30,695 bases of DNA from the IMG/VR virus record IMGVR_UViG_3300044626_000442, positions 1 to 30,695 of that record; one strand, given 5' to 3'. Each line of letters starts with the position of its first letter. Within the stretch, counting starts at the first letter, position 1. The translations under genes were made by a program, and so were the position numbers. Shown here one piece after another: positions 617-13,397 of this stretch. The notes beneath the pieces were generated by a model, which saw nothing but the letters and a program-made list of their open reading frames with translations, was not told where the DNA came from and ran no database searches. The stretch is from a virus.

Positions 617-644
617 AAAGAGTAACTTTAATTTACTACTCCCG

Positions 645-860: not shown

Positions 861-864
861 ATAA

Positions 865-872
865 CAAAGATA
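865..872 (-). promoter_or_regulatory. Possible -7 box for the minus-strand packaging operon
   Basis: On the minus strand this reads TATCTTTG, matching TAnnTTTG, and it is the same octamer found in the promoters at 25447 and 29174. No TTTG lies at the expected upstream distance. The box ends five bases before the start codon at 860, which would leave little or no 5' leader. Confidence 0.4.
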
Positions 873-895
873 TATAAAAAATAATTAGAAAAATG

Positions 896-926
896 TTTGG
901 TAGTTTATTATAAATAACTATATTTG
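896..926 (+). promoter_or_regulatory. Early promoter PE1 (Bacteroidota type)
   Basis: TTTG at 896-899 is followed after exactly 19 bases by TATATTTG at 919-926, a perfect match to the Bacteroidota consensus TTTG-N19-TAnnTTTG. Transcription should start near 930, about 28 bases before the first early gene. The bases around the -7 box (AAATAACTATATTTGCA) are nearly the same as in the second early promoter at 2305-2335. Confidence 0.85.
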
Positions 927-957
927 CATATAATTATTAACTAAAAAATCAAAAATT

Positions 958-1152
958 ATGACACCAAAAGAAATGATTAAAGCAGAGTACAAAAGAAGAA
1001 CAGATTTAGTAGAAGACATTAACTTTAGAAAACAATGTGTAAAAATGGCTAAAGCTTTAGGAATAACAGCTGATGAATGGAATAAAGATAAAGTTCATAT
1101 TATGCTAATATTCGCAGATAAATTTTGTCAATTAGAAAATCAAGCGGTGTAA
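958..1152 (+). CDS. First early gene, unknown protein (64 aa)
   Basis: This is a short, charged, mostly helical protein with no family that I recognise. The segment KMAKALGITADEWNKDK could be a small helical motif, but it is not a clear HTH. It is the first gene behind early promoter PE1, the position where phages often place small host-takeover proteins. That is position only, not evidence of function. The start ATG sits in the context AAAAATTATG, which recurs at several starts in this genome. Confidence 0.65.
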   Translation: MTPKEMIKAEYKRRTDLVEDINFRKQCVKMAKALGITADEWNKDKVHIMLIFADKFCQLENQAV

Positions 1153-1176
1153 TATCCGCTTTTAAAACCAAAAATT

Positions 1177-1263
1177 ATGAAAACATTTTTATCAAAACAG
1201 AAGTACCAAGTTTACGCAATCGGAGTTATTGCAGTATATTTTTTAACCCGATTTTTATATTAA
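1177..1263 (+). CDS. Tiny single-pass membrane peptide (28 aa)
   Basis: A 28-codon frame begins in the same ACCAAAAATTATG-type context as its neighbours and ends six bases before the next ATG. It encodes a short basic N-terminus (MKTFLSKQKYQ) followed by a hydrophobic stretch (VYAIGVIAVYFLTRFLY) long enough for one membrane pass. I infer an inner-membrane peptide. The function is unknown. Tight spacing, with little room left over on either side, argues that it is translated. Confidence 0.5.
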   Translation: MKTFLSKQKYQVYAIGVIAVYFLTRFLY

Positions 1264-1268
1264 TTATT

Positions 1269-1499
1269 ATGAGCATTAGAGCAAAACAAAAGTTCTATAA
1301 CCAGGCGGTAACGCTTGGAATAGATTTAAAGGATTTGGATGTTGAGAAATTAGATTTTTCTAATCCGGTAAAACACAAAAGCAGTTTTAAGAAACGAGCT
1401 TCTGAAATAAAAGAAATGTATAACTATAAGTTTCCTGCTTATGTAGAGCCTCGCAGTTTTGATTTTGGATTGTTTAATATTGAATTTACAAGAAAATGA
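1269..1499 (+). CDS. Unknown protein (76 aa)
   Basis: The frame is open from 1125, but the ATG at 1269, in the usual TTATTATG context right after the preceding stop, gives a 76-residue product and avoids overlapping two other genes. The protein begins MSIRAKQKFYNQAVTLGIDL and contains a basic patch (KHKSSFKKRASEIKE). I recognise no family. Its stop overlaps the next start as ATGA, so the two are probably translationally coupled. Confidence 0.6.
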   Translation: MSIRAKQKFYNQAVTLGIDLKDLDVEKLDFSNPVKHKSSFKKRASEIKEMYNYKFPAYVEPRSFDFGLFNIEFTRK

Positions 1500-1597
1500 C
1501 AAAAAAGGAATTAAAATTTTTACTCAAAACAGCATTTAAAGGATTTATATTTATTACTTTATTTACTATTTTATTCATCTTAATTTTTATAAAATGA
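1496..1597 (+). CDS. Tiny membrane peptide (33 aa)
   Basis: This frame overlaps both neighbours by ATGA (1496-1499 and 1594-1597), a strong sign of a real coupled gene. It encodes a lysine-rich start (MTKKELKFLLK) followed by a very hydrophobic stretch (GFIFITLFTILFILIFIK) that can span the membrane once. With the 28-residue peptide at 1177 it makes two micro membrane proteins in the first early operon. The function is unknown. Membrane disturbance or superinfection exclusion are possible guesses only. Confidence 0.6.
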   Translation: MTKKELKFLLKTAFKGFIFITLFTILFILIFIK

Positions 1598-1917
1598 AAA
1601 AGCTAATATTAGATTCAATAAAAGATTTTTGTAATGACAACTATAATTGGTTCGATTACTATATTAACTCCAAAGGCTTTGAAATTTACGATGAAGATTT
1701 TAATTGCATTGCTGTAGTTGATTTCGAGATTGAGGTTGAGGTGTATCGTAAGCCATGCACCGGCAATTATTTCAATCCACCCGAAACAGGTGAATGTGAT
1801 TTTATACTTTACGAGATAACTGTGCAGGAAGTATATAACTCAAAAGGCAAATTATTGCCAAACTATAAAGTAAAACTACAAAACGAATTGGATAACGTAA
1901 AAGGAAAAATAATATGA
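1594..1917 (+). CDS. Unknown acidic protein (107 aa)
   Basis: The protein is acidic and likely alpha/beta, with a Cys-containing central loop (RKPCTGNYFNPPETGECDF, about residues 52-70) that could bind metal or form a disulphide. Only two cysteines are involved, so this is weak. The N-terminus is a helix followed by beta-strands. It starts by ATGA overlap with the membrane peptide upstream and ends by ATGA overlap with the next gene, so it belongs to a translationally coupled chain of small early genes. Confidence 0.65.
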   Translation: MKKLILDSIKDFCNDNYNWFDYYINSKGFEIYDEDFNCIAVVDFEIEVEVYRKPCTGNYFNPPETGECDFILYEITVQEVYNSKGKLLPNYKVKLQNELDNVKGKII

Positions 1918-2150
1918 CAGCAGTTGAATGGTTAGAAGATTGCTTAACAGAGCAATATCCAAATGGTAAATTTGTTTGGAATACAAGAGCAGATATAGAA
2001 GCTTTATTTAGACAAGCCAAAGAAATGGAAAAGGAGCAGTTAGAATGCGCCTGGAACTCATCGGATCAAAACATGCGTTTTCAATTTAGTAGTTCGGCAT
2101 ATAAGCCAATTACATTTAAACAATGGTTAGAAAATTTTAAAGAAGAATAA
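1914..2150 (+). CDS. Unknown small protein (78 aa)
   Basis: This helical, Trp-rich protein begins MTAVEWLEDCL and ends with ITFKQWLENFKEE. I recall similar small proteins with a TAVEWL-type opening from Flavobacterium phages and prophages, but I know no function for them. It starts within the stop of the previous gene (ATGA) and is followed three bases later by another small gene, so it is part of the first early operon. Confidence 0.65.
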   Translation: MTAVEWLEDCLTEQYPNGKFVWNTRADIEALFRQAKEMEKEQLECAWNSSDQNMRFQFSSSAYKPITFKQWLENFKEE

Positions 2151-2153
2151 ACT

Positions 2154-2303
2154 ATGAAAAAAGAAAAAAATTTAGGAGGCAGACCTAAAGCATTTATTGA
2201 CGATGTGGCTGTTGTATTGCCAATATCAGTTCCAAGTAAAGAGCGTGAAAGATTGCGAATCAAATGGAACAAAGATTTGGATGAATTTAGAATTAAAAAA
2301 TAA
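2154..2303 (+). CDS. Small basic protein, possible ribbon-helix-helix regulator (49 aa)
   Basis: The 49-residue product starts with a basic GGRPK segment, then a short strand-like stretch (VAVVLPISVPSKER) and a basic helix (ERLRIKWNKDLDEFRIKK). That order resembles small ribbon-helix-helix DNA-binding proteins with a GRPK leader, but it is short for the fold and the match is only by eye. It is the last gene before promoter PE2 at 2305, whose upstream box starts two bases after the stop, so a role in controlling that promoter is conceivable. Confidence 0.55.
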   Translation: MKKEKNLGGRPKAFIDDVAVVLPISVPSKERERLRIKWNKDLDEFRIKK

Positions 2304-2304
2304 A

Positions 2305-2335
2305 TTTGTTTATTAATTATAAATTACTATATTTG
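2305..2335 (+). promoter_or_regulatory. Early promoter PE2 (Bacteroidota type)
   Basis: TTTG at 2305-2308 and TATATTTG at 2328-2335 are separated by exactly 19 bases, a perfect consensus. The core ATTATAAATTACTATATTTG differs by a single base from the same stretch of PE1. Transcription should begin at about 2339-2342, which is where the structured leader begins. Confidence 0.87.
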
Positions 2336-2339
2336 CAAA

Positions 2340-2430
2340 CGAGTTGGTCAGAACTCGATAAACCGAAACATAACTATTTCCCTCTGACGATTTGTACTGA
2401 CCTACATTTTGAAAGAGGGATTTTTATTTA
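2340..2430 (+). ncRNA. Kissing-loop leader A (candidate attenuator or small RNA)
   Basis: Hairpin 1: CGAGTT 2340-2345 pairs with AACTCG 2352-2357 and exposes the 6-nt loop GGTCAG. Hairpin 2: TCCCTCT 2379-2385 pairs with AGAGGGA 2414-2420 and is followed by TTTTTATTTA, like an intrinsic terminator. Its loop carries CTGACC 2397-2402, the exact complement of loop 1, flanked by GTA and TAC that can close a small inner stem. A second complement, TCTGAC 2383-2388, lies in the 5' arm of hairpin 2, so pairing of loop 1 there would break the terminator. The element starts at the predicted transcript start and ends eight bases before a start codon. I match it to no RNA family that I know. Confidence 0.7.
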
Positions 2431-2437
2431 AATTATT

Positions 2438-2653
2438 ATGAAGACACTATTTGACAATTTAAAAGAAGAACACAAAGAACAATTAAAAGAAATGTTGCCG
2501 TTATACCCAAGCGCATACGCAGCACTAATTAAAACATTAGAAGAAAATTATTTGTATTCACATTTAACAGTATCGGAAGCATACAGCTTGTTAATGAATA
2601 CCAGTAACAAAACTTTTAATATTATTAACCTTTCAGAACTATTTTATGAGTAA
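2438..2653 (+). CDS. Unknown protein behind leader A (71 aa)
   Basis: This is a soluble, mostly helical protein with the segment LYPSAYAALIKTLEENYLYSH and no recognised domain. It is the first gene after the structured leader and terminator-like hairpin at 2340-2430, so its expression, and that of the recombination genes behind it, may depend on readthrough. It overlaps the annealing-protein gene by eight bases, suggesting coupled translation and a role near recombination, but no direct functional evidence is visible. Confidence 0.65.
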   Translation: MKTLFDNLKEEHKEQLKEMLPLYPSAYAALIKTLEENYLYSHLTVSEAYSLLMNTSNKTFNIINLSELFYE

Positions 2654-3269
2654 TTTACCTAAAATTAATGATTTATATTCCGATAAACTTTCTATTCAAA
2701 AAGCGGATGTATTTGTAACTTTAATGAATCAGCACCCTAAACAAGAATGGGTAAAGGATCATCCTTTTATAAGAGGTTATAAATACTTACCTATTGAAAG
2801 GATTGAGTATTTATTAAAAACTATATTCAAGTCTTATAAGATTGAAATTACAGGCCAAGGCACATCGTTTAACGGTGTTTGGGTAACTGTTAGAATACAT
2901 TATTTGCATCCGGTAAGTGGCGAATGGTTGTTTCATGATGGCATTGGTGCTTCGCAGTTACAAACTGCCAAAGGAACATCCCCTGCGGATTTAAACAATA
3001 TCAATAATGGTGCTTTATCAATGGCCTATCCTGTTGCAAAGACAATAGCTATAAAAGATGCTGCGGATCATTTTGGTAAGCTATTCGGATCTGATTTAAA
3101 CCGTAAGGATTTAATTAATTACGAATTAGATTTGACATTGATTGAATTAACACCGGAGCATCCTAATTGGAATAAGGTAAAAGAAGCTGTAAAAAGCGGT
3201 AATTATACGATTGAACAAATACGAACTAAATACAATTTATCAGATGAAAACGCAAAACAACTTATTTAA
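2646..3269 (+). CDS. Rad52-like single-strand annealing protein
   Basis: The 207-residue protein should coat single-stranded DNA and anneal complementary strands during recombination or replication-linked repair. The centre has strands with GVWVTVRIHYL and GEWLFHDGIGAS, followed by the helix TIAIKDAADHFGKLFGSDLN (about residues 135-154). This order (strands, a glycine-rich turn, then an alkali/Ala-rich helix ending F-G-x-x-L) is the pattern of Rad52/Sak-type annealing proteins. The C-terminal 40 residues look like a small helical tail. It is followed directly by an exonuclease and an SSB-like gene, the usual partners of a phage annealing protein. The family assignment is by motif only; Erf- or RecT-type relatives are less likely. 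Confidence 0.72.
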   Translation: MSNLPKINDLYSDKLSIQKADVFVTLMNQHPKQEWVKDHPFIRGYKYLPIERIEYLLKTIFKSYKIEITGQGTSFNGVWVTVRIHYLHPVSGEWLFHDGIGASQLQTAKGTSPADLNNINNGALSMAYPVAKTIAIKDAADHFGKLFGSDLNRKDLINYELDLTLIELTPEHPNWNKVKEAVKSGNYTIEQIRTKYNLSDENAKQLI

Positions 3270-3861
3270 GGCACGAGCTTCGGCTTCAGGAAAGCTAATG
3301 ACTGCTCCAAGAGCAAAGAGCGAAACATTATCAGAAACAACAAAGACTTATGTTTACGAATGGTTAAAAGAAAGCATTTACGGCATTCGTAAAAATATCA
3401 ATAACAAATATTTATCTAAAGGATTATGGCTTGAAGATGAAGCTATTGATAAGACTATTGAATTATTAGATTTGTCCTTCGCTATTAAGAATGAGAAATT
3501 TTTTGAAGATGATTATTTTACAGGCACTCCGGATTTAATTGTTGATGGTGTTGTTTACGATACGAAATGCAGTTGGGATTGTTTTACTTTTCCATTATTT
3601 GATAATGATATACCAACTAAAGATTATTACTATCAATTACAGGTTTATATGCACCTTACAGGATGTAAAAAAGCATGTTTAGTTTATGTATTGCTTAACA
3701 CTCCTGAAGAATTAACTTATGAAGAAAAACATAACTACGATGATATGGATGCGAAGTATAGAATTAAGCATTTTGAAATTGATTATAATGCAGAGGTTAT
3801 TGAGCAATTACAAAATAAAGTTTTAGAAGTTAGAGAATTTATAAATAACATTAAATATTAG
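3244..3861 (+). CDS. YqaJ/lambda-exonuclease-like recombination nuclease
   Basis: This 205-residue PD-(D/E)xK nuclease probably resects double-stranded ends to make substrate for the annealing protein. Visible motifs are the N-terminal FKARASASGKLMT, an acidic helix with E64, the TGTPDLI motif with D97, then DTK at 106-108 in place of ExK, and YYYQLQVYMHLTG with Q131. The order G-x-PD, (D/E)xK, YxxQLQ is that of YqaJ-type exonucleases. An in-frame TTG at 3211 would add 11 residues, but the ATG at 3244 gives a 26-bp overlap with the upstream gene and puts the conserved start of the domain at residue 8. The neighbours are the annealing protein and the SSB-like protein. Confidence 0.78.
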   Translation: MKTQNNLFKARASASGKLMTAPRAKSETLSETTKTYVYEWLKESIYGIRKNINNKYLSKGLWLEDEAIDKTIELLDLSFAIKNEKFFEDDYFTGTPDLIVDGVVYDTKCSWDCFTFPLFDNDIPTKDYYYQLQVYMHLTGCKKACLVYVLLNTPEELTYEEKHNYDDMDAKYRIKHFEIDYNAEVIEQLQNKVLEVREFINNIKY

Positions 3862-3866
3862 AAATT

Positions 3867-4208
3867 ATGGCGGAAATTCAAGTAACGTTAAACGCACAAG
3901 CGTTGCGTAATTTAGTAACAAAAAGAAGTTACAAAAACAAAGATGGTCAGGATGTAGAAGTCCAGGAGATTAAATTTAAATTAGTTGAGGTTAAAGAAGC
4001 GAAAACTATATTTACTTCTGACAAATACAAGATTAACAAAACGCATTTCGCTTGTGTTATTCAAACAAAAGAGGAACGAGAGGCCAAAGCTGATACTATT
4101 TACATTGGCGAAGGATTTACAACCGTTTGGAACGCTGATAATGTACAAGTTCATCAGGCAGAGGTTATCAGTCCTAAACCTGTTGTTGAAGATGATTTAC
4201 CATTTTAA
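3867..4208 (+). CDS. ssb: SSB-like protein with acidic C-terminal tip
   Basis: This protein has 113 residues and ends VVEDDLPF, which matches the acidic-hydrophobic tip (DDDIPF-like) by which single-stranded DNA binding proteins recruit other replication proteins. The body is basic and strand-rich (KFKLVEVKEAKTIF, THFACVIQTKEE), consistent with a small OB fold, but I cannot see a clear classical SSB signature. It stands after the annealing protein and exonuclease and before the helicase, the right place for a phage SSB. An alternative is a distinct SSB-analogue family sharing only the tip. Confidence 0.7.
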   Translation: MAEIQVTLNAQALRNLVTKRSYKNKDGQDVEVQEIKFKLVEVKEAKTIFTSDKYKINKTHFACVIQTKEEREAKADTIYIGEGFTTVWNADNVQVHQAEVISPKPVVEDDLPF

Positions 4209-4218
4209 TATTATTAAC

Positions 4219-4261
4219 AACCGCTGCGGTAGTAAATTAATTTTTGCTACCAAAAGCGGTT
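4219..4261 (+). promoter_or_regulatory. Structured intergenic hairpin C
   Basis: AACCGCT 4219-4225 pairs with AGCGGTT 4255-4261. Inside it GGTAG 4228-4232 pairs with CTACC 4247-4251, leaving GC on one side and AAA on the other, and a 14-nt T-rich loop. The layout (outer stem, GC, GGTA...TACC, AAA, outer stem) resembles hairpin 2 of leader B at 7205-7242. No long T-run follows, so termination would be weak. It lies 27 bases before the helicase start and may tune its expression. Confidence 0.5.
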
Positions 4262-4288
4262 TAATTTAAACCTTATAAAAACTATTAT

Positions 4289-5656
4289 ATGAATTATAAA
4301 GAATTTATTGAAAACAAAAAACATTCAATAGGTAACTTTGGATTTAAAGCAAATTATATTCCGGATATAGCATTTGACTTTCAAAAGTTTGTTATTGAGA
4401 AAGCTATTTTAAAAGGCCGTAGTGCTGTCTTTTTAGATACAGGATTAGGTAAGACTTTAGTACAATTATCTTTAGCTAAAAACATTGTAAACCACACTAA
4501 CAAAAAGGTTTTAATTTTGACTCCTTTAGCTGTTGCATTTCAGTTTATACTTGAAGCTGAAAAATTAGGTATTGATGATATCGAATATTCAAAAGATGGT
4601 AAGCATACTAAAAAAATAGTTGTTTGTAACTATGAGCGTTTGCACTACTTTAATGAAAAGGATTTTGAAGGTGTGATTTTAGATGAAAGCTCCATACTAA
4701 AAAATTTTGATGGAAAAATTAAACAAGAGGTTACGTCATTTGTTAAAAAAATACCTTTTAGATTTTTATCAACTGCTACACCTTCCCCTAATGATTTTAT
4801 TGAATTAGGCACAAGTTCCGAAGCATTAGGATATATGGGTTATATGGATATGTTAGGTAAGTTCTTTAAAAATAATCAAAATAGTGTTGATAGTAATAAT
4901 AGAAATATTGGAGAAAAATTTTATTTAAAACCTCACGCTGAAAAGGATTTTTTTGCTTGGGTAAATCAATGGTCTATTATGGCTAAAATGCCAAGTGATT
5001 TAGGATTTTCAAATGAACGTTACAACTTACCTGAATTGATTGTAAATAAACACGTAGTTGAAAATCAAAGTTTATTTGATGTTGATGGTCAAATGTCAAT
5101 GTTTGTTCCTATTGCTAAATCTATGACAGAAGTAAGACACGAACAAAAGCAAACCGAAGAAAAAAGATGTGAAAAAGCTATTGAATTAGCAAAAGGCAAA
5201 ACCTCTGTTTATTGGTGCAATACAAATAACGAAAGTAGTATTTTAAAAGCATCCGATAAAAATGCAGTTGAGATAATAGGAAGTCAAAGCATAGACAAAA
5301 AAGAAGAAATACTTTTAGCGTTTGCAAATGGCGAAATTGAAAGGCTAATAACCAAAGCAAAAATGACTTCTATGGGTTTGAATTGGCAACATTGTAATCA
5401 TTCTGTATTTTTTCCAACATGGAGTTATGAGCAATATTACCAAGCTATAAGACGTTTTTGGCGTTTTGGACAAACAAAAAACGTAACTATTGATTTAGTT
5501 GTTTCAGATGGACAAACAAGGGTATTAGAAGCCTTACAGCAAAAAACAGAAAAAGCAATACAACTACATAAAAATTTAACTGAAAATGTTAATCGTTCAT
5601 TTGAACACAAAGTAAAAGAATTTAACAAAGAAATAATAAAACCTAACTTTTTATAA
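4289..5656 (+). CDS. SNF2/SF2-type helicase
   Basis: This 455-residue ATPase of helicase superfamily 2 uses ATP to move on or remodel DNA. Visible motifs are Walker A TGLGKT (51-56), motif Ia LTPLAVA, Walker B variant LDESS (131-135) in place of DEAH, motif III STATPSPND (161-169), motif V near MTSMGLNW (359-366), and motif VI QAIRRFWRFGQ (385-395). The motif VI form with RRFWRFGQ is typical of phage SNF2-like helicases. A DNA methyltransferase starts two bases after its stop and a nuclease follows, so the three may act together. The likely role is in replication, recombination or template switching; target and polarity cannot be read. Confidence 0.85.
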   Translation: MNYKEFIENKKHSIGNFGFKANYIPDIAFDFQKFVIEKAILKGRSAVFLDTGLGKTLVQLSLAKNIVNHTNKKVLILTPLAVAFQFILEAEKLGIDDIEYSKDGKHTKKIVVCNYERLHYFNEKDFEGVILDESSILKNFDGKIKQEVTSFVKKIPFRFLSTATPSPNDFIELGTSSEALGYMGYMDMLGKFFKNNQNSVDSNNRNIGEKFYLKPHAEKDFFAWVNQWSIMAKMPSDLGFSNERYNLPELIVNKHVVENQSLFDVDGQMSMFVPIAKSMTEVRHEQKQTEEKRCEKAIELAKGKTSVYWCNTNNESSILKASDKNAVEIIGSQSIDKKEEILLAFANGEIERLITKAKMTSMGLNWQHCNHSVFFPTWSYEQYYQAIRRFWRFGQTKNVTIDLVVSDGQTRVLEALQQKTEKAIQLHKNLTENVNRSFEHKVKEFNKEIIKPNFL

Positions 5657-5658
5657 TT

Positions 5659-6672
5659 ATGGAAAACAAAGTAAAAGACCAAGTAGTAACAGATCGTTAC
5701 GCTATTTATAACAGCGATTGTATGTTAGTAATGCCAACACTTGAAAACGAAAGTATTGATTTAAGTGTTTATAGTCCACCTTTTGCAGGATTATACAACT
5801 ATTCAAGTAGCGAAAATGATTTTAGTAACTGTGAAAGTAAAGAACAATTTTTAGATCAATATGAGTTTTTAGTAGCTGAAATTTCAAGAGTAACAAAATC
5901 AGGTCGTATAACTGCTGTACATTGTACTGATGTATTTGACAATACATGTCGACTTTGGGATTTTCCAAATGAAATAATTAGAATACATACTAAATATGGT
6001 TTTGAATATCGTAATCGTATTACAATTTGGAAAGAGCCATTAAAAGTTCGTATGCGTACGATGGTGCAAAGTTTAATGCATAAATTTATAGTTGAGGATA
6101 GTACAAAATGTTTTACTGCTATGCCTGATTATGTTTTGGTATTTACAAAAAAAGGCGAAAATAAAGTGCCAGTAACTCACCCTTTTGGAATTAATCATTA
6201 TGCCGGTGAAATACCAATTTTACCAAATATTTTAAGAGCTTGGAATAATGCAAATAATTCTGATTTAAATGAAGTAGAACTTTGGGATTATCTTAATAAT
6301 CATAATGAGGATGATAAAATAACAAAACTAAATCATTATATATGGCAAAGATATGCTTCGAGTGTTTGGGATGATATTAGAATTGATAATGTTTTACCTT
6401 TTAAAGATAGCAAAGAAGATGATGACGAAAAACATGTACATCCTTTGCAATTAGATGTAATTGATAGAATTGTTGAATTATATTCAAATCCTAATGAGGT
6501 TGTTTTAACACCTTTTATGGGTGTAGGTAGTGAAGTCTTTAGTCCTGTTTCAATGGGAAGAAAAGCAATAGGTATAGAATTAAAAGATAGTTATTTTAAA
6601 CAAGCTAAATTGAATTTACAAGAAGCTACAAAAAGATTTAAAGAAACTATAAAACAAGAAACTTTATTTTAG
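5659..6672 (+). CDS. DNA methyltransferase (beta class, N4-cytosine or N6-adenine)
   Basis: The enzyme transfers a methyl group from S-adenosylmethionine to an exocyclic amino group in DNA. Motif IV is SPPF (39-42), the catalytic loop. SPP forms are commoner in N4-cytosine enzymes, but adenine enzymes cannot be excluded. The S-adenosylmethionine motif TPFMGVGSE (284-292) and GIEL (305-308) come near the C-terminus, and HPLQ (261-264) serves as motif X. The order IV...X-I marks a beta-class enzyme, with a long middle region (about 60-255) as target recognition domain. No cognate restriction enzyme is obvious, so it is probably a stand-alone phage enzyme protecting phage DNA, although the nuclease gene four bases downstream deserves attention. 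Confidence 0.85.
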   Translation: MENKVKDQVVTDRYAIYNSDCMLVMPTLENESIDLSVYSPPFAGLYNYSSSENDFSNCESKEQFLDQYEFLVAEISRVTKSGRITAVHCTDVFDNTCRLWDFPNEIIRIHTKYGFEYRNRITIWKEPLKVRMRTMVQSLMHKFIVEDSTKCFTAMPDYVLVFTKKGENKVPVTHPFGINHYAGEIPILPNILRAWNNANNSDLNEVELWDYLNNHNEDDKITKLNHYIWQRYASSVWDDIRIDNVLPFKDSKEDDDEKHVHPLQLDVIDRIVELYSNPNEVVLTPFMGVGSEVFSPVSMGRKAIGIELKDSYFKQAKLNLQEATKRFKETIKQETLF

Positions 6673-6676
6673 CGAT

Positions 6677-7150
6677 ATGAATAAAGAAAACAAAGCACGT
6701 TATACCAAACTATTTATTCATGATAAACTAACACGTTATCCATCGTTTATAGGTCGTGAAAATGCCATTCCGCCCCCTAATTTAAAAGAAGCCGGAGCTA
6801 ATGATTTAACTCGATTAGTAATTGACTTTTTAAACATGAGTAATTGCCAAGCGGAGCGTATTAGTTCACAAGGTCAATATAGGGATGGTAAAAAACAAGT
6901 TACTGATGTAATAGGTCGAGTTCGTACTATTGGAAGCGGAGTTTGGACTCCCGGAACAAGCACAAAAGGAACTGCGGATATTTCAGCAACTATCAAAGGT
7001 CGTTCAGTTAAAATTGAGATTAAATGGGCAAAAGATAGGCAGTCTGATGCACAAAAGGAATATCAATTATCAATAGAAAAATCATTAGGAATATACATTA
7101 TAGTTAAAACTTTTGATGATTTTATAGAATGGTTTGATAAATTTTATTAG
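6677..7150 (+). CDS. VRR-NUC-like PD-(D/E)xK nuclease
   Basis: The C-terminal half has the nuclease pattern GTADISA (D101), then EIKWAKDRQS with E114 and K116, then Q126 in a helix, followed by a GIYIIVKTFDDF strand-helix. The G-x-x-D, E-x-K, Q order is that of VRR-NUC and related Holliday-junction-resolvase-like nucleases. The N-terminal 90 residues contain PPPNLKEAGANDLTRLVIDFL and a basic region, perhaps for DNA binding. It could resolve branched replication intermediates before packaging. Because it follows a helicase and a methyltransferase directly, a restriction-like role is an alternative but less likely reading. Confidence 0.75.
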   Translation: MNKENKARYTKLFIHDKLTRYPSFIGRENAIPPPNLKEAGANDLTRLVIDFLNMSNCQAERISSQGQYRDGKKQVTDVIGRVRTIGSGVWTPGTSTKGTADISATIKGRSVKIEIKWAKDRQSDAQKEYQLSIEKSLGIYIIVKTFDDFIEWFDKFY

Positions 7151-7155
7151 ATTTG
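7148..7155 (+). promoter_or_regulatory. Possible -7 box before leader B
   Basis: TAGATTTG matches TAnnTTTG and overlaps the stop codon of the nuclease gene. No TTTG lies 19 bases upstream (7125-7128 reads TAGA), so the promoter would be weak or activated. Start near 7160 would place leader B at the transcript 5' end, as in leader A, but would remove the 5' arm of the 7151-7159 stem. Confidence 0.35.
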
Positions 7156-7164
7156 TAATTGTAT

Positions 7165-7249
7165 TAATGGTGGAGCATTATTACAAATGAAAGCATTTTA
7201 ACAGTCCTATCAGGGCGGTACTCCACTACCAAACTGATAGGATTTTTTA
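7165..7249 (+). ncRNA. Kissing-loop leader B (same design as leader A)
   Basis: Hairpin 1: TAATG 7165-7169 pairs with CATTA 7176-7180 and exposes the 6-nt loop GTGGAG 7170-7175. Hairpin 2: TCCTATCAG 7205-7213 pairs with CTGATAGGA 7234-7242 and is followed by TTTTTTAT. Its loop contains GGTA, CTCCAC 7221-7226, TACC, so the exact complement of loop 1 is itself shown as a 6-nt loop on a 4-bp stem. A competing outer stem, ATTTGTAAT 7151-7159 with ATTACAAAT 7180-7188, is available on readthrough RNA. The element ends nine bases before the primase-helicase start. It shares architecture but not sequence with leader A. Confidence 0.7.
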
Positions 7250-7257
7250 TATAAATT

Positions 7258-9510
7258 ATGTATTACTTAAAACTTCTCGATAAATTCTCACTGCTTACAG
7301 TTGGAGATGACAAAATACCTAACTTCGGATGGAAGAAGTTACAAACTCAAAAGCTAACTAAAGAACAATTCTTAATTAACTATCAATATTCAGGCGGTAA
7401 AACTTTTACTGATTCGGATGGTGTTATAACAGAAATAAAAGGAACTAAAAACGTTGGTATAATTACAGGTTTTGAAGATTTAGAAGTTATTGATATTGAT
7501 TTAAAAGTATTTTCAACTGCAAAAGAAAAAACAGACTTTTGGAATGAATATTTAGGTTACTTAAAAGATAATATTTTAGACTTTGAAGATAAGTTTGTTA
7601 TTTACAAAACAATGAATGACGGTTATCATATATTGTACAAGTCAAAAAGAGTTGATAAAAACACAAAGATAGCCAAGTTAAAAGGCCATACTGAAGCTAT
7701 TATAGAAACAAGAGGCAAATTTGGTTATGTTTTCATTTATGAGAATAACAAAGTATCTAAAAATGATTATTTAGGAATTACTTATATTTCAGATTCAGAC
7801 AGGGAAATACTTTGGAGCTTTTCTAAAATGTATAATTATATTGATGAAAAACCTATTGAGCCAAAAAAAGATAATAAAGTTTATGATATAGATCAGTTAA
7901 CTCCTTGGGAAGATTATAATCAGAAAACATCAATTTTAGACCTTATAAGCGATAGTTTTACAATAGTAGGTAATCATTCAAAAAAATATGTTATTAAGCG
8001 TAATGGTGCTACTTCTCCACATTCCGGATATGTTTTTAAAGATAATGGATTTATGTATTTGCATTCAACAGGTTCTATGTATGATGCAGAAAAAATATAC
8101 ACTCCTTTTTTAGTCTATTGTAAAAAATATCATGGTGATGATTTTAAGGCAGCAGCTTCAGATTTGTATAAACAAGGTTACGGATCACGTTTTGTTAAAG
8201 AAATTGTGCCGATTGTTTCTGAAAAAATAAAATCTATTGAATTTCCTTTACAGATATTTCCGGATGTAGTTGAAAAATATATTTTGCATTGTAAAGAACG
8301 TTTGATGCTAAACGAGGATTTTATGTCAGGTGCTTTGCTTTGGATGACTTCTATATTAATTGGTAACTCTTTAAAAATTGAAGCTAAAAAAGGATGGTTA
8401 GAAAGTCCTATTTTATTTATTGCTTTAGTTGGTCGTGCCGGATTAGGTAAAACTCCAAGTACAAAACCAATTATTGCACCAATAAAAAAAATTAATCAAA
8501 AAAAGATTGAAGATTATTTAAATAAATATAAAGAATATGAGCGTTATATTGAAGCTACAAAAAAAGAACAGGCAGGTTTAGTGCCAATAGATAAGCCAAG
8601 AAAAAAACAAATACTTGCTGAAGATACTACTATTGAAGCATTAATAAACTTACATAACGAAAGCAATAAATCAATCGGAGTTTTTAAAGATGAACTTGAT
8701 GGATGGTTTAAGGATATGAACAAATATAGAGATGGATCTGATAAACAGAAATGGCTATCTATTTGGAGCAATGAAAGTATAATAGTTAATAGAGTATCCA
8801 GACCTGATTTGTATATTGCTTCACCTTTTATTTCTGTTATGGGAGGTATTCAGCCAACTATATTAGATGAGCAGTTTACTACTGAAAATATAGCAAATGG
8901 TTTTATTGATAGGTTTTTATTTTGTTATCCTGAAAAAATAATTTTTGAGCAATTTTCATTAACTGATTTAGAAGAACATATTTCTGAATGGTGGAGCGAT
9001 AGCATTATTAAAATAAGCGATAGCGTAGCACAGTTTATAAAAAAAGATGAAAACGATAACATTATACCATTTATTTGTAAAATGTCAACAGATGGCTTTA
9101 AAACGTGGATTTTGATATTTAATACTTATTCTTCAATACAAAATTCAGATGATGAAATAGAAAGCAATAAAAGCATGATTGCAAAAATTAAAGTTTATAT
9201 ACCTCGTTTTGCTTTAATTATACATTTTTTGGATTGCATGTTTTATTCAAAAGATATTCGAGAAACTTATGTTAGTAAAGAAACTATTTTAAAAGCTGAT
9301 TTATTAGCTCAATATTTTATTAATCAATTTAAAAAAATAAAAATAGATAGTGCTGAAACATCAAAGATAAAATCTAATATTTCAACTGCTACTGATAATG
9401 AAAGTTTTGTTAAAAAATGTTATGAAGAAAACCCAGACTTTAACCGTACAAAGATTGCTGAATTATTAGGCATTTCTCGTCAAACTATTTACAAATATTT
9501 AAAAAAGTAA
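7258..9510 (+). CDS. Primase-polymerase/DUF3987-type helicase fusion
   Basis: This 750-residue replication protein probably primes and unwinds DNA at the phage origin. The N-terminal domain (1-165) fits an archaeo-eukaryotic-type primase-polymerase: NVGIITG then VIDID with D79 and D81, H124 in GYHILY, and IIETRG (148-153). The middle (about 325-650) has Walker A GRAGLGKTPS (392-401), a KDELDGWF acidic motif and SPFISVMGGIQP, typical of DUF3987 helicases. The last 25 residues form an HTH (RTKIAELLGISRQTIYKYL). This terminal HTH is a candidate reader of the heptamer array that starts ten bases after the stop codon. Leader B lies directly upstream and may limit synthesis. Confidence 0.85.
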   Translation: MYYLKLLDKFSLLTVGDDKIPNFGWKKLQTQKLTKEQFLINYQYSGGKTFTDSDGVITEIKGTKNVGIITGFEDLEVIDIDLKVFSTAKEKTDFWNEYLGYLKDNILDFEDKFVIYKTMNDGYHILYKSKRVDKNTKIAKLKGHTEAIIETRGKFGYVFIYENNKVSKNDYLGITYISDSDREILWSFSKMYNYIDEKPIEPKKDNKVYDIDQLTPWEDYNQKTSILDLISDSFTIVGNHSKKYVIKRNGATSPHSGYVFKDNGFMYLHSTGSMYDAEKIYTPFLVYCKKYHGDDFKAAASDLYKQGYGSRFVKEIVPIVSEKIKSIEFPLQIFPDVVEKYILHCKERLMLNEDFMSGALLWMTSILIGNSLKIEAKKGWLESPILFIALVGRAGLGKTPSTKPIIAPIKKINQKKIEDYLNKYKEYERYIEATKKEQAGLVPIDKPRKKQILAEDTTIEALINLHNESNKSIGVFKDELDGWFKDMNKYRDGSDKQKWLSIWSNESIIVNRVSRPDLYIASPFISVMGGIQPTILDEQFTTENIANGFIDRFLFCYPEKIIFEQFSLTDLEEHISEWWSDSIIKISDSVAQFIKKDENDNIIPFICKMSTDGFKTWILIFNTYSSIQNSDDEIESNKSMIAKIKVYIPRFALIIHFLDCMFYSKDIRETYVSKETILKADLLAQYFINQFKKIKIDSAETSKIKSNISTATDNESFVKKCYEENPDFNRTKIAELLGISRQTIYKYLKK

Positions 9511-9519
9511 GAATTTTAG

Positions 9520-9775
9520 TGTAAACTTTAGGTTTACAGTAGTTTACACTATGTTTACAGTTGTAAAGCCTTGATTTTATTGTTACTCACAAGGTTTTTA
9601 TAGTTAGTGTAAACTGTAAACCCCTAAAAAACAAAAAAAATAAATTTCTAAAAAATAAAAAAATAAATATTTTTATGCAGGTTTACAGTTTACAGTTTAC
9701 ACTTGTTTAAAAAGTCAATAAAATAAAGGGTTAAGACAATATTAATACTGTAAACTTAGTTTACACTGGTTTACA
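9520..9775. repeat. Twelve-copy GTTTACA/TGTAAAC array, probable replication origin
   Basis: Perfect heptamers occur at 9520, 9608, 9615 and 9749 as TGTAAAC, and at 9532, 9542, 9553, 9681, 9688, 9695, 9759 and 9769 as GTTTACA. Two (9608) and three (9681) copies stand head to tail with no spacer, giving an exact 7-bp period. Others form inverted pairs with 5-bp (9520/9532) and 3-bp (9749/9759) spacers. Between the clusters, 9622-9680 is almost pure A and T. Repeated binding sites around an AT-rich unwinding stretch, next to the primase-helicase gene, fit an iteron-type origin. A multi-site operator for the genes downstream is the alternative. Confidence 0.75.
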
Positions 9776-9790
9776 CTAAAACAAAAAAAT

Positions 9791-10012
9791 ATGATACAAA
9801 TTGACAATCCATTTGAAAAAAAGAAAAAAAAAATAATTGAAGAAAAAAACTGGAGTTTTCCATTTAAATTTTACATGAGTAAAAATAAAAAACCTTTTAG
9901 ATTATCCGGTATTGAATTAACAGACTCCGGATATTTAACAACAATTTTTTGGCTTGATGAAGAAAAATACGAAACATTCCCTTTTGAAAAAATAGAACCT
10001 TATTTAATATAA
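9791..10012 (+). CDS. Small unknown protein behind the heptamer array (73 aa)
   Basis: The protein has a lysine-rich N-terminus (KKKKKIIEEKNW) and a C-terminal half with alternating hydrophobic residues (KFYMSKNKKPFRLSGIEL) that looks like a small beta-barrel. I know no family. It starts 16 bases after the last heptamer, so any protein bound there would control it directly. The following gene starts five bases after its stop. Confidence 0.65.
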   Translation: MIQIDNPFEKKKKKIIEEKNWSFPFKFYMSKNKKPFRLSGIELTDSGYLTTIFWLDEEKYETFPFEKIEPYLI

Positions 10013-10016
10013 AAAT

Positions 10017-10271
10017 ATGATTTATACAGTTAGAAATATAGCAGAGTTTTGCGATGTAGATTTTGGATTTATAAGACGAATAATTGACTCCAATGAATTA
10101 AGACCTAAACTTATTTGCGGAAATGCAAACGAAAAAAAAGGATATAGCTTTTATCAGTTATTTATTATACAGTCTTTTTTAGAGCAGCTATCTCAAAACA
10201 ATTTACATTTTGATTTTGAGAATGAAGAGATTTATACAATTTATGAAAGCAAACTAAATTTTGAATTATGA
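10017..10271 (+). CDS. Small MerR/excisionase-like HTH protein (84 aa)
   Basis: The N-terminal part, TVRNIAEFCDVDFGFIRRII, followed by a turn and KGYSFYQLFIIQSFL, resembles the winged helix of MerR or excisionase-type DNA-binding proteins, where the helix pair is followed by a short wing and a linker helix. It probably binds DNA as a regulator of early or replication genes. The tail is acidic. Its stop overlaps the next start by ATGA. No integrase is present, so an excision role is unlikely. Confidence 0.6.
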   Translation: MIYTVRNIAEFCDVDFGFIRRIIDSNELRPKLICGNANEKKGYSFYQLFIIQSFLEQLSQNNLHFDFENEEIYTIYESKLNFEL

Positions 10272-10621
10272 ATATTCACGAAAGAATTACCGAAATTAAT
10301 AGCACTTTACTGCAACTTAATTACAAGGACCAGGAGATATTATCCTTTTGGGATGAGTGTATAAAAATTGCTAAAGATAAACAGCAAATATTTACTGATG
10401 AATTTAAGATTTCTATAAACGGCAAACGATTAGCTGACAAATTAAATGAAAGCTTCGGTTTACAATTATTGCCAAAAATCAAAAGAAATATTAAGAAGGA
10501 TATTAAATTTTTAATGTTGGATCAGTCAGGCAAAGTATATGAGTTTAAAGGAATTGTTTTAGACTTTTTAGATAATGATGTTACTATTGAATTAAATGAC
10601 TCAACCTTTAGCCTTTATTAA
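10268..10621 (+). CDS. Unknown protein (117 aa)
   Basis: This protein has a helical N-terminal half (HERITEINSTLLQLNYKDQE) and a strand-rich C-terminal half (VYEFKGIVLDFLDNDVTIEL). I recognise no domain. It is translationally coupled to the HTH gene upstream by ATGA overlap and is followed one base after its stop by another HTH gene, so it may belong to a small regulatory set, but its role cannot be read from sequence. Confidence 0.65.
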   Translation: MNIHERITEINSTLLQLNYKDQEILSFWDECIKIAKDKQQIFTDEFKISINGKRLADKLNESFGLQLLPKIKRNIKKDIKFLMLDQSGKVYEFKGIVLDFLDNDVTIELNDSTFSLY

Positions 10622-10622
10622 T

Positions 10623-10817
10623 ATGAATCAGCACAAAATGTATAGATGCATAAGGCTTATGCAATTCCTCCAGGACAAGCCAAGAAATATGTACACAATA
10701 GAAAGATATTTGGGCGTAAGTAATAGAACAGTTTACCGGTATCTAAAACTTTACGAAGCACTTGGATATATTGTAAAAAAAGACAAATTTAATAAAGTTG
10801 AACTACTAAAACCATAA
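10623..10817 (+). CDS. Small winged-HTH DNA-binding protein (64 aa)
   Basis: The product is almost entirely a winged helix-turn-helix of the HTH_11/DeoR-like kind. LMQFLQDKPRNMYTIERYL is the first helix pair, GVSNRTVYRYLKLYEALG holds the recognition helix, and YIVKKDK is the wing. It should be a transcription regulator, possibly the reader of the GTTTACA heptamers or of a promoter. The frame is open to an ATG at 10596, but the ATG at 10623, directly after the preceding stop, leaves the domain whole and avoids a 26-bp overlap, so I prefer it. Confidence 0.7.
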   Translation: MNQHKMYRCIRLMQFLQDKPRNMYTIERYLGVSNRTVYRYLKLYEALGYIVKKDKFNKVELLKP

Positions 10818-10819
10818 CT

Positions 10820-11047
10820 ATGAATTACCTATTATCAAAAGATCATTTTCTTGCTTATGAACAGACTAAAGAAGATTATAAAAATTTAATTTGCCATTAT
10901 GCAGATTTTAAACTTTATCGCAAAGGAACTGCACAACATGATAAGGCAAAGCAGAACTGCCATAAATATCTATTATCAATTATTAAAAATAAGAAGATAT
11001 TGAAAATTGATTCTACTGCTGATGAAACTATGTTGGATGAATTGTAA
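10820..11047 (+). CDS. Unknown protein, last gene of the early operon (75 aa)
   Basis: This is a helical basic protein with the segment HYADFKLYRKGTAQHDKAKQ and two scattered His-Cys pairs (ICHYAD, NCHKY). These could bind zinc as CHx(n)CH, but the spacing is long and unproven. It starts three bases after the winged-HTH gene and is followed at once by a strong hairpin terminator, so it closes the plus-strand early block. Confidence 0.6.
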   Translation: MNYLLSKDHFLAYEQTKEDYKNLICHYADFKLYRKGTAQHDKAKQNCHKYLLSIIKNKKILKIDSTADETMLDEL

Positions 11048-11077
11048 AAAAAAAGGTGGATGCTTGGCATCCACCTA
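11046..11077. terminator. Strong terminator between converging operons
   Basis: AGGTGGATGC at 11054-11063 pairs perfectly with GCATCCACCT at 11067-11076 around a 3-nt loop. Nine A residues at 11046-11054 become a T-run for minus-strand transcripts, so it is a textbook terminator for the lysis operon. For plus-strand transcripts the trailing run is weak (TATTT), but the GC-rich stem may still stop the early operon. Confidence 0.85.
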
Positions 11078-11114
11078 TTTCAACCTTAAACCAAATTATT
11101 ATGAAGCTTCAAAT

Positions 11115-11624
11115 TTAAACAAAAAAGTTTAATTTATCTTTATATTTTTTGTATAAAATATAAACCGGTATTAAAAGTAAAAACCAAAGCAACCACCAAT
11201 AAGACTCTTTTCGCTCTGTTTGTTTTACTTCTATTATTCTGTTGGATTTAATCACCTTTAAATCGCTTTTTTGTGCTTTGTGTTGAAATTTTACATCTTT
11301 TGCAATACTTATATTGTTTTTCTTTTTTGAACGCTTTATTTTAGCGTTTTTGTACGTTATTCCATTTATAACCATAGGAATTGTATCAGATACCGGACAA
11401 ATCTCTATTTCATCAGTTGTTGATGTATCAACTATTTTAGTGTTATCTGTTAGTTTAGTTTCTGTTTTGACTTCCGTTTTTATTTCTGTCTTCTCCGTTT
11501 CTTTGATTTCTGACTTTGCCACCTTTCGTGATCCGCAAGAGGTCAAAAATATAGCGCCTAATAAAGCCAATACAATGGCTATTAGTAAAATATTATTTCC
11601 GTTGTTGTTTTCTGTTGTAGTCAT
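11115..11624 (-). CDS. Unimolecular spanin (u-spanin)
   Basis: This protein should fuse inner and outer membranes at the last step of lysis. The N-terminus is a lipoprotein signal: hydrophobic residues 11-27, then the lipobox LTSC with the acylated cysteine at 30. The C-terminus has a transmembrane segment, YWWLLWFLLLIPVYILY, about residues 142-158, followed by a basic tail. The middle is rich in Lys, Glu and Thr and can stretch across the periplasm. An outer-membrane lipoprotein anchor plus an inner-membrane anchor in one chain is the defining layout of T1 gp11-type u-spanins; 169 residues is a little longer than T1 gp11. It shares its region with the lysozyme and holin-like genes and starts by ATGA overlap with the small gene upstream. 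Confidence 0.8.
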   Translation of the reverse strand: MTTTENNNGNNILLIAIVLALLGAIFLTSCGSRKVAKSEIKETEKTEIKTEVKTETKLTDNTKIVDTSTTDEIEICPVSDTIPMVINGITYKNAKIKRSKKKNNISIAKDVKFQHKAQKSDLKVIKSNRIIEVKQTERKESYWWLLWFLLLIPVYILYKKYKDKLNFFV

Positions 11625-11776
11625 TCGTTATCTTCTATTATTTGGTTAATTAAATCTTGGCTATAACCGCAAAACATAAGCATGATTTTTAATTTCGGTA
11701 TAAGTTCCCAGATTGTATTATCGTTGTGTAAATCCAATACAAGTGATTCTCCGTTTGTTTCTACTGTTATTTTCAT
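11621..11776 (-). CDS. Small protein coupled to the spanin (51 aa)
   Basis: A 51-codon frame starts at 11776 and its TGA overlaps the spanin ATG (ATGA), which argues for a real coupled gene. The product starts MKITVETNGESLVLDL, then WELIPKLKIMLMFCGYSQDL and an acidic end (IIEDNE). It has one moderately hydrophobic helix but no clear membrane segment. I do not recognise a family. Position suggests a lysis accessory or unrelated cargo gene. Confidence 0.6.
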   Translation of the reverse strand: MKITVETNGESLVLDLHNDNTIWELIPKLKIMLMFCGYSQDLINQIIEDNE

Positions 11777-11811
11777 TCTCGTCTCTAATTTAGTGTATAT
11801 TTGGGACTAAA

Positions 11812-11841
11812 TGTCAAGTATAATGTGCTATAAACTTGACA
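11812..11841. promoter_or_regulatory. Inverted repeat in the spanin leader region
   Basis: TGTCAAGT 11812-11819 and ACTTGACA 11834-11841 are perfect 8-bp inverted arms 14 bases apart. A further GACAA/TTGTC pair follows at 11838-11850, and TATAC/GTATA pairs lie further along. The 211-bp gap 11777-11987 has no gene that I can support and is extremely AT-rich. This looks like operator or leader sequence for the spanin operon; no clear TAnnTTTG box faces that operon. Confidence 0.45.
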
Positions 11842-11987
11842 AATATTGTCTAAATGTTGCTTATATTATACATTTTGTATAATTTTTAATGTTTTTGTAT
11901 AGTATAATATACATTTTACATTACTTTTTATGTCTATTTAAACCCTATTTTTTAAGGTCTATCTTTAAACGATTAGTAAGTTATAAG

Positions 11988-12239
11988 TTACGCATCTTGT
12001 ACGCATTTTGGATAAGTACAATATTTTAAATTACATATTTCACCCTCTTTTTTAACTCCATTCTGTTTGCACTTGTTTGAGTCTTTGTCATTAGGCCAAA
12101 ACATATCGCAATTATCAGCATCATCTTCACGATTGAAAGATCCGTAAGTTTGATAAACTAAACTTGCCGGAGCAGTATACCTATAACAATATTCTTTACT
12201 TGGACATAAAGCATCATTACATTTTGCTAAATCAGCCAT
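11988..12239 (-). CDS. Conserved Cys-rich small protein (83 aa)
   Basis: The protein has nine cysteines in short motifs: AKCNDALCPSKEYCYRYTAP near the start, NCDMFW in the middle, and GEICNLKYCTYPKC at the end. The opening MADLAKC...CP...CYR and the later CDMFW closely resemble a small Cys-rich family that I recall in many phages, with no assigned function. The cysteines could bind zinc. It overlaps the upstream gene by eight bases. Confidence 0.7.
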   Translation of the reverse strand: MADLAKCNDALCPSKEYCYRYTAPASLVYQTYGSFNREDDADNCDMFWPNDKDSNKCKQNGVKKEGEICNLKYCTYPKCVQDA

Positions 12240-12372
12240 TTTTTTGTTTTATTAATTCTCTATAAATAGTATTTGTTTTCTCGCAATTTTGTCCTCTTAA
12301 ATATTGACGAAGCATTTTATTCGCTACTTTCTCAATTCGCGAATCAAGATCAGGCACAACTTTCTTTTCCAT
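12232..12372 (-). CDS. Small helical protein (46 aa)
   Basis: A 46-codon frame begins at 12372 with the ATG sharing one base with the stop of the phosphoesterase (TAATG), and it overlaps the Cys-rich gene downstream by eight bases. The product, starting MEKKVVPDLDSRIEKVANKM, is charged and helical. The tight junctions on both sides support translation. No family is recognised. Confidence 0.6.
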   Translation of the reverse strand: MEKKVVPDLDSRIEKVANKMLRQYLRGQNCEKTNTIYRELIKQKNG

Positions 12373-13397
12373 TACACAATTTTATAATCGATTATTCTAA
12401 TATTCTTTAATTCGTAATTACCATCACTTGCTACCTTAACGTGAGCAAATCCATGATTGTAATTATTATAAGGCGCATATTCAGGCTCTAAACCACATAG
12501 ACATCCTGTTGACCAGGTTGTTGTAACTTCACCGCTTAAAGTCTTTTCTGTATGCTCTGAAGTTCTATGATGATGACCTACGATTGCGCTCTCTTTAGCT
12601 TTCATAAACAAACCTCTTGCAGGATTAACAGGCGGTGCAAATCCACCAAACCATTCGTGTCCATGAAGTATTGGAAGCCTTCCTGCCATTGCCATTTGCT
12701 TATCTTTAACCAATGTAACACCAAACTCCCTAAATCTTAAAAGTTGTTCAAGTTTAAAATCATCAATCCCCAATAACTCGGGAGCTTTAATCATTAAATA
12801 ATCCTCATATCTTTTTTCGTGATTTCCAATTTTATAATAGATAGGGCATTTAAATAAATCTTGCATCATTTTTAAAAAGCCTCTCACCATTTCTAACTCG
12901 CCCGCCATATCTCTCAATCGTCTGTCTTTTGTAAATCGACTGCATTGGTAAAAATCAGCAATATCACCATTTAAATAGATTGTATTGACTTTATTTTCTA
13001 AACCATAATTTATTGCCAATTCAAGAGCTTTATTGTCTTGATATGGGAAATGAATGTCACTTAAAATTAAAATATTATTTTGGCCTTTTGGAATTATAAA
13101 AGCTTCGCACTTTTCATAATCGCTTTCCGGTAAATCAATTATTCTGCTCATAGATTGTTTTTTTTGATTTTCAGTACGCACTCCCGCTTGGGAAATGGGC
13201 GAACTATTTTTACCATTTTCGCCTCTATATCTTCTGACATTTGTTCGAACACTATCAAATGAATTAAAGTCTAATTTATGTTGATCATAAATCATTCTCG
13301 CAATAGCCATTGTTGTTGCATTTGGGAACTGATTTATAAAAGACAATACAATATTTTTTTTGTAAGTTGCAGCGTTTTGATTCCCTTTTAGGCTCAT
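12372..13397 (-). CDS. Calcineurin-like metallophosphoesterase with HTH-like N-terminus
   Basis: The domain from residue 108 carries all the metal-binding motifs of the calcineurin-like family: SDIHF (D114, H116), NGDIAD (D145), GNHE (N192, H193), HGHEWF (H245) and GHHHRT (275-277). It should hydrolyse a phosphodiester or phosphomonoester with two bound metal ions. The N-terminal 60 residues, including TTMAIARMIYDQH and VRTNVRRYRG, look like an HTH and suggest DNA binding. The natural substrate cannot be read; nuclease activity is a possibility. It lies between lysozyme and spanin genes, has its own likely promoter at 13418-13448 and is followed by two coupled small genes. Confidence 0.82.
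   Translation of the reverse strand: MSLKGNQNAATYKKNIVLSFINQFPNATTMAIARMIYDQHKLDFNSFDSVRTNVRRYRGENGKNSSPISQAGVRTENQKKQSMSRIIDLPESDYEKCEAFIIPKGQNNILILSDIHFPYQDNKALELAINYGLENKVNTIYLNGDIADFYQCSRFTKDRRLRDMAGELEMVRGFLKMMQDLFKCPIYYKIGNHEKRYEDYLMIKAPELLGIDDFKLEQLLRFREFGVTLVKDKQMAMAGRLPILHGHEWFGGFAPPVNPARGLFMKAKESAIVGHHHRTSEHTEKTLSGEVTTTWSTGCLCGLEPEYAPYNNYNHGFAHVKVASDGNYELKNIRIIDYKIV

Follow-up and report, generated by a model that had tools for sequence, protein, structure and literature searches.

Putative attenuators in flavobacterial phages: kissing-loop leader RNAs as an apparently undescribed family

In kissing-loop riboswitches such as guanidine-II, two leader hairpins carry kissing loops whose fixed letters bind the ligand; in ColE1 RNA I/II and ColIb-P9 repZ the loops are fully complementary over 6-8 nt, and in repZ the contact lies in a leader 5′ of a replication gene. 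Among phages, the HK022 putRNA is located at the start of early transcripts, folds into two stem-loops within ~73 nt that are held by a tertiary contact, and needs no phage protein (PMC9378689). Phage T4 has structured leaders on gene 32 (a pseudoknot) and on homing-nuclease genes (hairpins) (PMC3014915). In the mobile element Tn916, terminator T1 guards the replication genes, and the antiterminator canT is a cis-acting RNA past the promoter (PMC11658703).

Here we describe leader RNAs from a phage window (the whole stretch of DNA that was analysed, 30,695 nt) and from its relatives. Like HK022 put, these leaders begin a phage transcript with two stem-loops, the RNA start being predicted here; unlike put, they are without the conserved putL/putR nucleotides that bind the polymerase zinc-binding domain, they use loop-loop kissing rather than a triplex, share no common sequence, belong to another host phylum, and combine freely varying loops with a conserved U-tract that is followed by a gene. 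As in transcription attenuators, a terminator-like hairpin and a U-tract lie between promoter and gene, but what comes on top of them is a loop-loop contact by which the terminator is not disrupted; no mutually exclusive antiterminator helix is seen above chance. The loops differ in nearly every cluster (71 distinct loop-1 segments among 150 leaders) and have no Rfam match, unlike guanidine-II; in contrast to ColE1 RNA I/II and repZ, no antisense RNA was seen, a terminator comes next, and many different genes are led. The likeness to T4 is that of a structured phage leader on a replication gene or homing endonucleases (PMC3014915), but the pseudoknot allows the gene 32 product to regulate its own gene, and the nuclease hairpins mask a Shine-Dalgarno-type ribosome-binding site, of a kind that flavobacteria do not use (PMC6847099). 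Tn916 likewise has a terminator at replication genes and a cis-acting RNA following the promoter; there, T1 and canT are two separate elements of other size and in another phylum, whereas terminator and 5′ hairpin form one unit here.

Two leaders in one phage window

Leader B, read directly from the sequence, spans window positions 7148-7257, 5′ of a primase ORF that starts at 7258:

7148-7155, + strand: -7 promoter element TAGATTTG, TAnnTTTG type (sequence)
7161-7184, + strand: hairpin 1, GTA-T-TAATG [GTGGAG] CATTA-T-TAC (sequence, fold)
7170-7175, + strand: loop 1, GTGGAG, kisses 7221-7226 (perfect complement; compensating partner changes in relatives)
7185-7202, + strand: linker, A/T-rich, single-stranded (unpaired in the MFE fold)
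7203-7244, + strand: hairpin 2, with outer stem AGTCCTATCAG/CTGATAGGATT, internal loop GGC/AAA and inner stem GGTA/TACC (sequence, fold)
7221-7226, + strand: loop 2, CTCCAC, kisses 7170-7175 (sequence, strict search)
7243-7248, + strand: T-run TTTTTT, abuts hairpin 2, intrinsic-terminator-like (sequence)
7258-9510, + strand: primase/helicase ORF led by leader B (Pfam and PHROG matches)

The pattern is as the initial annotation had described it, with perfectly complementary loops at 7170-7175 and 7221-7226, a stem, a T-run and an ATG at 7258. The core of hairpin 1, TAATG[GTGGAG]CATTA at 7165-7180, had been given correctly; its stem is longer than stated (GTA-T-TAATG/CATTA-T-TAC). A 24-nt stretch (7181-7204) separates this core from a 9-bp stem, TCCTATCAG/CTGATAGGA (7205-7213/7234-7242), which can grow to 11 bp and encloses GGTA[CTCCAC]TACC at 7217-7230. 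Folded from the predicted RNA start at ~7160, the leader reaches -26.4 kcal/mol (z = -4.3), and none of 200 shuffles was as good.

A Bacteroidota promoter directly 5′, which had gone unmentioned, is part of the element. Mapping in F. johnsoniae has defined a TAHHTTTG promoter with G at -5, in which G at the third position is disfavoured and RNA starts 5 nt after the last G (PMC6847099). The promoter element of leader B overlaps the stop codon of ORF 6677-7150 and is atypical in having the disfavoured G at its third position (TAGATTTG); no clear -33 TTTG is found at the usual distance from it, and relatives keep the element as TAGATTTG or TAAATTTG. Because its own promoter is atypical, leader B may be read mainly from upstream, or it may work inside a longer transcript. 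The ORF at 7258-9510 matches PF13148 (4.8e-49, DUF3987 helicase part) and, weakly, the Prim-Pol family PF09250 (0.0083), as well as phrog_2373 (helicase) and phrog_19930 (polymerase/primase), and its product has a C-terminal HTH. Directly 3′ of this gene, window positions 9516-9780 are dense with copies, in direct and inverted orientation, of AGTTTACA(C/G)T / AGTGTAAACT; these iteron-like repeats are possibly a replication origin.

Leader A (window 2328-2437) has the design of leader B in common with it, and not its sequence:

2305-2335, + strand: promoter TTTG-N19-TATATTTG, TTTG at -33 (sequence; consensus from PMC6847099)
2340-2357, + strand: hairpin 1, CGAGTT[GGTCAG]AACTCG (sequence, fold, strict search)
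2379-2420, + strand: hairpin 2, TCCCTCT...TGTA[CTGACC]TACA...AGAGGGA (sequence, fold)
2438-3269, + strand: ORFs led by leader A, of 71 aa (2438-2653) and 207 aa (2646-3269) (ORF list, PHROG search)

Its RNA is predicted to start at ~2340, its loops lie at 2346-2351 and 2397-2402, the inner segment TGTA[CTGACC]TACA occupies 2393-2406, and the T-run (2421-2425) is followed by an ATG at 2438. The folding z-score against shuffles is -4.25, and hairpin 2 is found again in at least 12 relatives, 5′ of the same 71-aa ORF; in the window, a RecE-like exonuclease ORF (3211-3861) comes after the two led ORFs. The common geometry without sequence identity that had been proposed for the two leaders holds, loop 2 starting 51 nt after the start of loop 1 in each. 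Under a strict search that demands a 6-nt loop and a perfect complement, the + strand of the 30.7-kb window yields leaders A and B only. With a looser descriptor, shuffled sequence scores high within a single window too, and significance was therefore judged on comparative data.

Two further sites in the window deserve mention. A hairpin at 4210-4262 (ACCGCT/AGCGGT, inner GGTAG/CTACC), 5′ of a helicase ORF starting at 4289, is without loop partner or promoter. At 883-957, 5′ of ORF 958, a second promoter that resembles the leader A promoter (81% over 46 nt) heads a short leader without hairpins of the leader A/B kind.

Complementary loops across the family

Kissing-loop leader RNAs are a real and apparently undescribed family in phages of flavobacteria. 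Sequence comparison has shown their architecture and conservation: a host-type TAHHTTTG promoter is followed by hairpin 1, an A/U-rich linker, hairpin 2, ~8-9 U and, ~17 nt on, a start codon, and the loops of this ~90-nt leader RNA are exact complements over 6-10 nt. Loci were gathered via three proteins and one leader pattern. The primase of leader B as query yielded 80 phage contigs whose upstream regions were compared, and two further proteins used as queries brought additional loci.

A descriptor that combined complementary loops, the hairpin 1 stem, a terminator-like hairpin, an ORF start and the promoter TAnnTTTG gave 63 non-redundant matches on the sense strand and one on the opposite strand, itself family-like; 1.33 M strand-bases of shuffled sequence gave none. 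In 196 phage records, a promoter-anchored scan with neither T-run nor ORF required and an ad hoc score threshold of >=28, as all scan scores were ad hoc, found 174 non-redundant matches, whereas shuffling a quarter of the data gave none; an ORF follows ~160 of these matches (~92%), and a T-tract (>=5 T in 10) follows 159 (~91%). The match rate in real sequence is far higher than in shuffled sequence in both scans (63 versus 0; 174 versus 0), as the earlier proposal of a family had anticipated. In the same comparison, phage contigs held 209 leaders (redundant) in 3.9 M strand-bases, whereas parts of three host chromosomes of similar GC held no full leader in 1.56 M strand-bases.

At 72% identity, loops excluded, the leaders fall into 46 clusters that have hardly any base in common outside promoter and U-tract. 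What is constant is the spacing: the median distance from promoter to loop 1 is 11 nt (family criterion 7-18 nt), from promoter to the end of hairpin 2 it is 86, and from there to the ATG 17, with ORF starts at 11-27 nt. Across the clusters, T is present at 63-83% over about nine positions after hairpin 2, with GG preceding, and the linker is A-rich and almost without G near hairpin 2; the median stability of hairpin 2 is -17.5 kcal/mol, and in some clusters the U-tract is interrupted (GGGCTTTACTTTTT). The fixed geometry initially suggested (6-nt loop, GTA...TAC, linker of 21-24 nt) describes one case, the kissing helix ranging from 6 to 10 nt and the linker from ~9 to ~35 nt.

The kissing contact itself covaries. 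Among the 15 leaders of one cluster, all 105 cells of the kissing helix are paired, and three of its seven pairs show double changes; hairpins 1 and 2 covary as well, and the signal is lost when the partners are slid. Since the leaders had been found by complementarity, a covariance model was made without the kissing pairs. It returned 70 matches, 55 of them distinct and other leader types among them, and the loops are complementary over >=6 nt in every one of the 55, compared with 12% when the 5′ half was shuffled and 22% in chimeras. The scan matches, the compensating relatives and the full complementarity of the model matches support the reading of a new RNA family with selection on structure.

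Among the 80 primase loci, primases with their own promoter have leaders whose loops differ yet stay complementary, and those without a kissing-loop leader mostly sit directly 3′ of another gene. Loop pairs 5′ of homologous primases include GTGGTAG/CTACCAC (L016), TGGCAG/CTGCCA (L022), CATCCAC/GTGGATG (L030), AGTAGTAG/CTACTACT (L036), GTAGGATT/AATCCTAC (L037), GCTCTAC/GTAGAGC (L040), GGTGGC/GCCACC (L043), ATGCAG/CTGCAT (L049), TGTGCG/CGCACA (L053) and GTGCGGA/TCCGCAC (L057); the cluster of leader B also contains other loop pairs. Compensatory changes, which had been asked for in close relatives, are present there: TGGTGG/CCACCA in L008 versus TGTGTGG/CCACACA in L012 and, in cultured phages, GTGAGACG/CGTCTCAC in tooticki6-1 versus GTGGAACG/CGTTCCAC in mumin9-1. 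L099 and L107 are a further near-identical natural pair with compensating loops. With such compensating pairs available in nature, as in tooticki and mumin, a direct test is feasible.

In three primase leaders (L052, L055, L065) a 5′ segment, CCTCTTAC, pairs with loop 2 and no clear hairpin 1 is seen; a linear 5′ strand may replace hairpin 1 there. In one leader type (L040, L101, L111, L113, L183) the linker between the kissing hairpins holds an extra short hairpin.

The element is common and recognisable in flavobacterial phages (Flavobacterium, Polaribacter, a Psychroflexus bin) and missing from Rfam. At gathering score, the window and 18 leader-holding loci match only tRNAs in Rfam 15; a permissive Rfam search of window 1-12500 gave chance matches elsewhere, none of them relevant; and a search of the literature for the element or for phage transcriptomes returned nothing describing a kissing-loop leader. 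Ordinary homology searches overlook the family as its loop letters are free: it is an RNA family definable largely by a tertiary contact.

Led genes and phage distribution

The genes led mostly belong to DNA metabolism. Placement extends beyond the recombination and primase genes first proposed, to a range of primases, ResIII helicases, a methylase-helicase, an MT-A70 methylase, DUF6291 proteins and, especially, homing endonucleases of the NUMOD4/HNH or GIY-YIG kind. In IMG/VR, 65 stretches fit the exact pattern of one leader type; of the 36 distinct leaders of this type in the newly fetched loci, 16 lead genes with an HNH-like and one with a GIY-YIG-like pattern, seven lead a small 78-aa protein, and several of the other 12 lead products that start like NUMOD4 proteins. 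A further 35 distinct leaders, with 30 other loops, lie on their contigs.

Among cultured phages, the Flavobacterium 'Moomin' phages carry the leader 5′ of an endonuclease gene and 5′ of the replication module, elemoA carries it 5′ of a small gene, replication protein and primase/helicase, and it also precedes a gene annotated 'replication protein' in Polaribacter P12002S and gp62 in Flavobacterium 11b. No kissing-loop leader was found in crAss001 (first 45 kb), Nonlabens P12024S or Cellulophaga phi38:1 (first 30 kb).

Tooticki and mumin have the same leader with compensated loops, and their downstream replication modules are annotated as different, non-homologous genes. At L194 (12625-12780) and L197 (12701-12830), in two close Flavobacterium phages, a common leader with compensated loops stands 5′ of differently annotated replication modules; the module seems to have been swapped and the leader kept. 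A single leader type is found on non-homologous genes, and many unrelated leaders are found on homologous primases; leader type and led gene are not tied to each other, and autoregulation by the downstream product was therefore rejected. A regulatory RNA of the host was also discarded: in 396 genomes of one order, model R1 under strict filters gave a single match, on a contig also carrying a phage primase, and the promoter-anchored scan gave none in the parts of three host genomes.

Proposed attenuation and other readings

The kissing-loop leaders most likely act as attenuators; that this is how phage DNA-metabolism genes are controlled we put at about an even chance, inferring termination from the stability of hairpin 2 and its T-tract, the marks of an intrinsic terminator. 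With an RNA start predicted 5 nt past TAHHTTTG, hairpin 1 begins at ~+1 to +5 and hairpin 2 ends at ~+82. Hairpin 1 would fold at the RNA 5′ end while RNAP departs from the promoter; the emerging hairpin 2 loop would pair with loop 1, and hairpin 2 would close under the kissing helix, forming an intrinsic terminator together with the U-tract. Some transcripts would stop as ~85-95 nt RNAs and others continue into the gene, the kissing contact setting or switching the proportion of the two, and some factor or infection phase might raise read-through. Such control would be generic for phage DNA-metabolism and homing-nuclease genes, without autoregulation by a single product, and would reveal how replication genes are timed in phages of a phylum that does not use Shine-Dalgarno translation.

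Closed hairpin 2 and the kissing contact are conserved together, and the contact therefore probably acts on the formed terminator hairpin; we favour kissing that helps the terminator, with low read-through by default, over kissing that blocks it, a direction that we infer. The U-tract occupies a region in which flavobacterial translation favours A and little structure (PMC6847099), a location more in keeping with a terminator than with a signal for translation. A classical attenuator with antiterminator strand exchange was dropped, because pairing of the terminator arm upstream was not above chance (0.270 in real versus 0.283 in shuffled sequence). Kissing and hairpin strength do not correlate, nor do linker and helix length. 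Tentatively, and at somewhat below even probability, the leaders would form a categorically new class of regulatory RNA whose architecture is sequence-free, selection acting only on the complementarity of the loops and on their position between promoter and terminator; flavobacterial phages would use it as a portable expression unit for replication genes and homing-nuclease cassettes, with the tertiary contact itself tuning intrinsic termination.

HK022 put suggests another role: a folded 5′ RNA, with its two hairpins joined by kissing, would bind the elongating RNAP and render it resistant to pauses and terminators, both the leader's own U-tract and terminators further downstream. Place and size are those of HK022 putRNA (early transcript start, two stem-loops with a tertiary contact), and the leader is often at the head of multi-gene replication operons. 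Yet many leaders drive a single homing-endonuclease gene, where processivity would be of little use; the put nucleotides that contact polymerase are conserved, whereas kissing-loop clusters share hardly any base; and put is without a conserved U-tract. We regard this role as unlikely, if worth some weight. The U-tract abutting hairpin 2 is also left unexplained if a terminal hairpin locked by kissing guards the mRNA from 5′-end-dependent decay and keeps the start region free, a rather unlikely account with which the start of hairpin 1 at the predicted RNA end and the generic use on many genes agree. Promoter, 5′ hairpin and terminator further resemble a small RNA gene, of which the terminated ~85-95 nt RNA would be the product and read-through would give the mRNA, but an ORF starts almost always 11-27 nt on, and freely varying loops leave no common target, making such a gene improbable.

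A translational switch, in which loop 2 would pair with the start region instead and loop 1 would be its competitor, draws on the primase clade L045-L080, where a copy of loop 1 stands at the start codon (ATGCAGA-ATG in L049, GGGCGGA-ATG in L057) and changes along with the loops. Such a match occurs in just 2 of 83 representatives, about the chance rate; we hold the switch to be quite improbable, and start-codon competition was abandoned as a general rule and retained for this one clade only. The pattern might instead belong to the DNA, as paired operators or a hairpin at a replication origin, or might arise by chance in AT-rich leaders: the loops are an inverted repeat, and several leaders lie near replication genes. 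This reading, to which we give next to no weight, is already contradicted by the sense-strand bias of 63:1, single-stranded geometry and covarying stems, leaders that also precede homing nucleases, the lack of full matches in the 1.56 M host strand-bases, and the lack of matches with promoter in shuffles.

Some details recur in subsets of leaders. The loop-1 copy at the start codon (ATGCAGAATG or GGGCGGAATG) is found in L045, L049, L054, L057, L061-L064, L067 and L070-L080, all in one primase clade. Hairpin 2 of L008, L022, L029, L043 and L044 holds an internal loop, AGTA/GAAA, that resembles the bulged-G (loop E) motif, and in type II leaders it has a TGAT/TGAT internal loop in which tandem G-A pairs could form.
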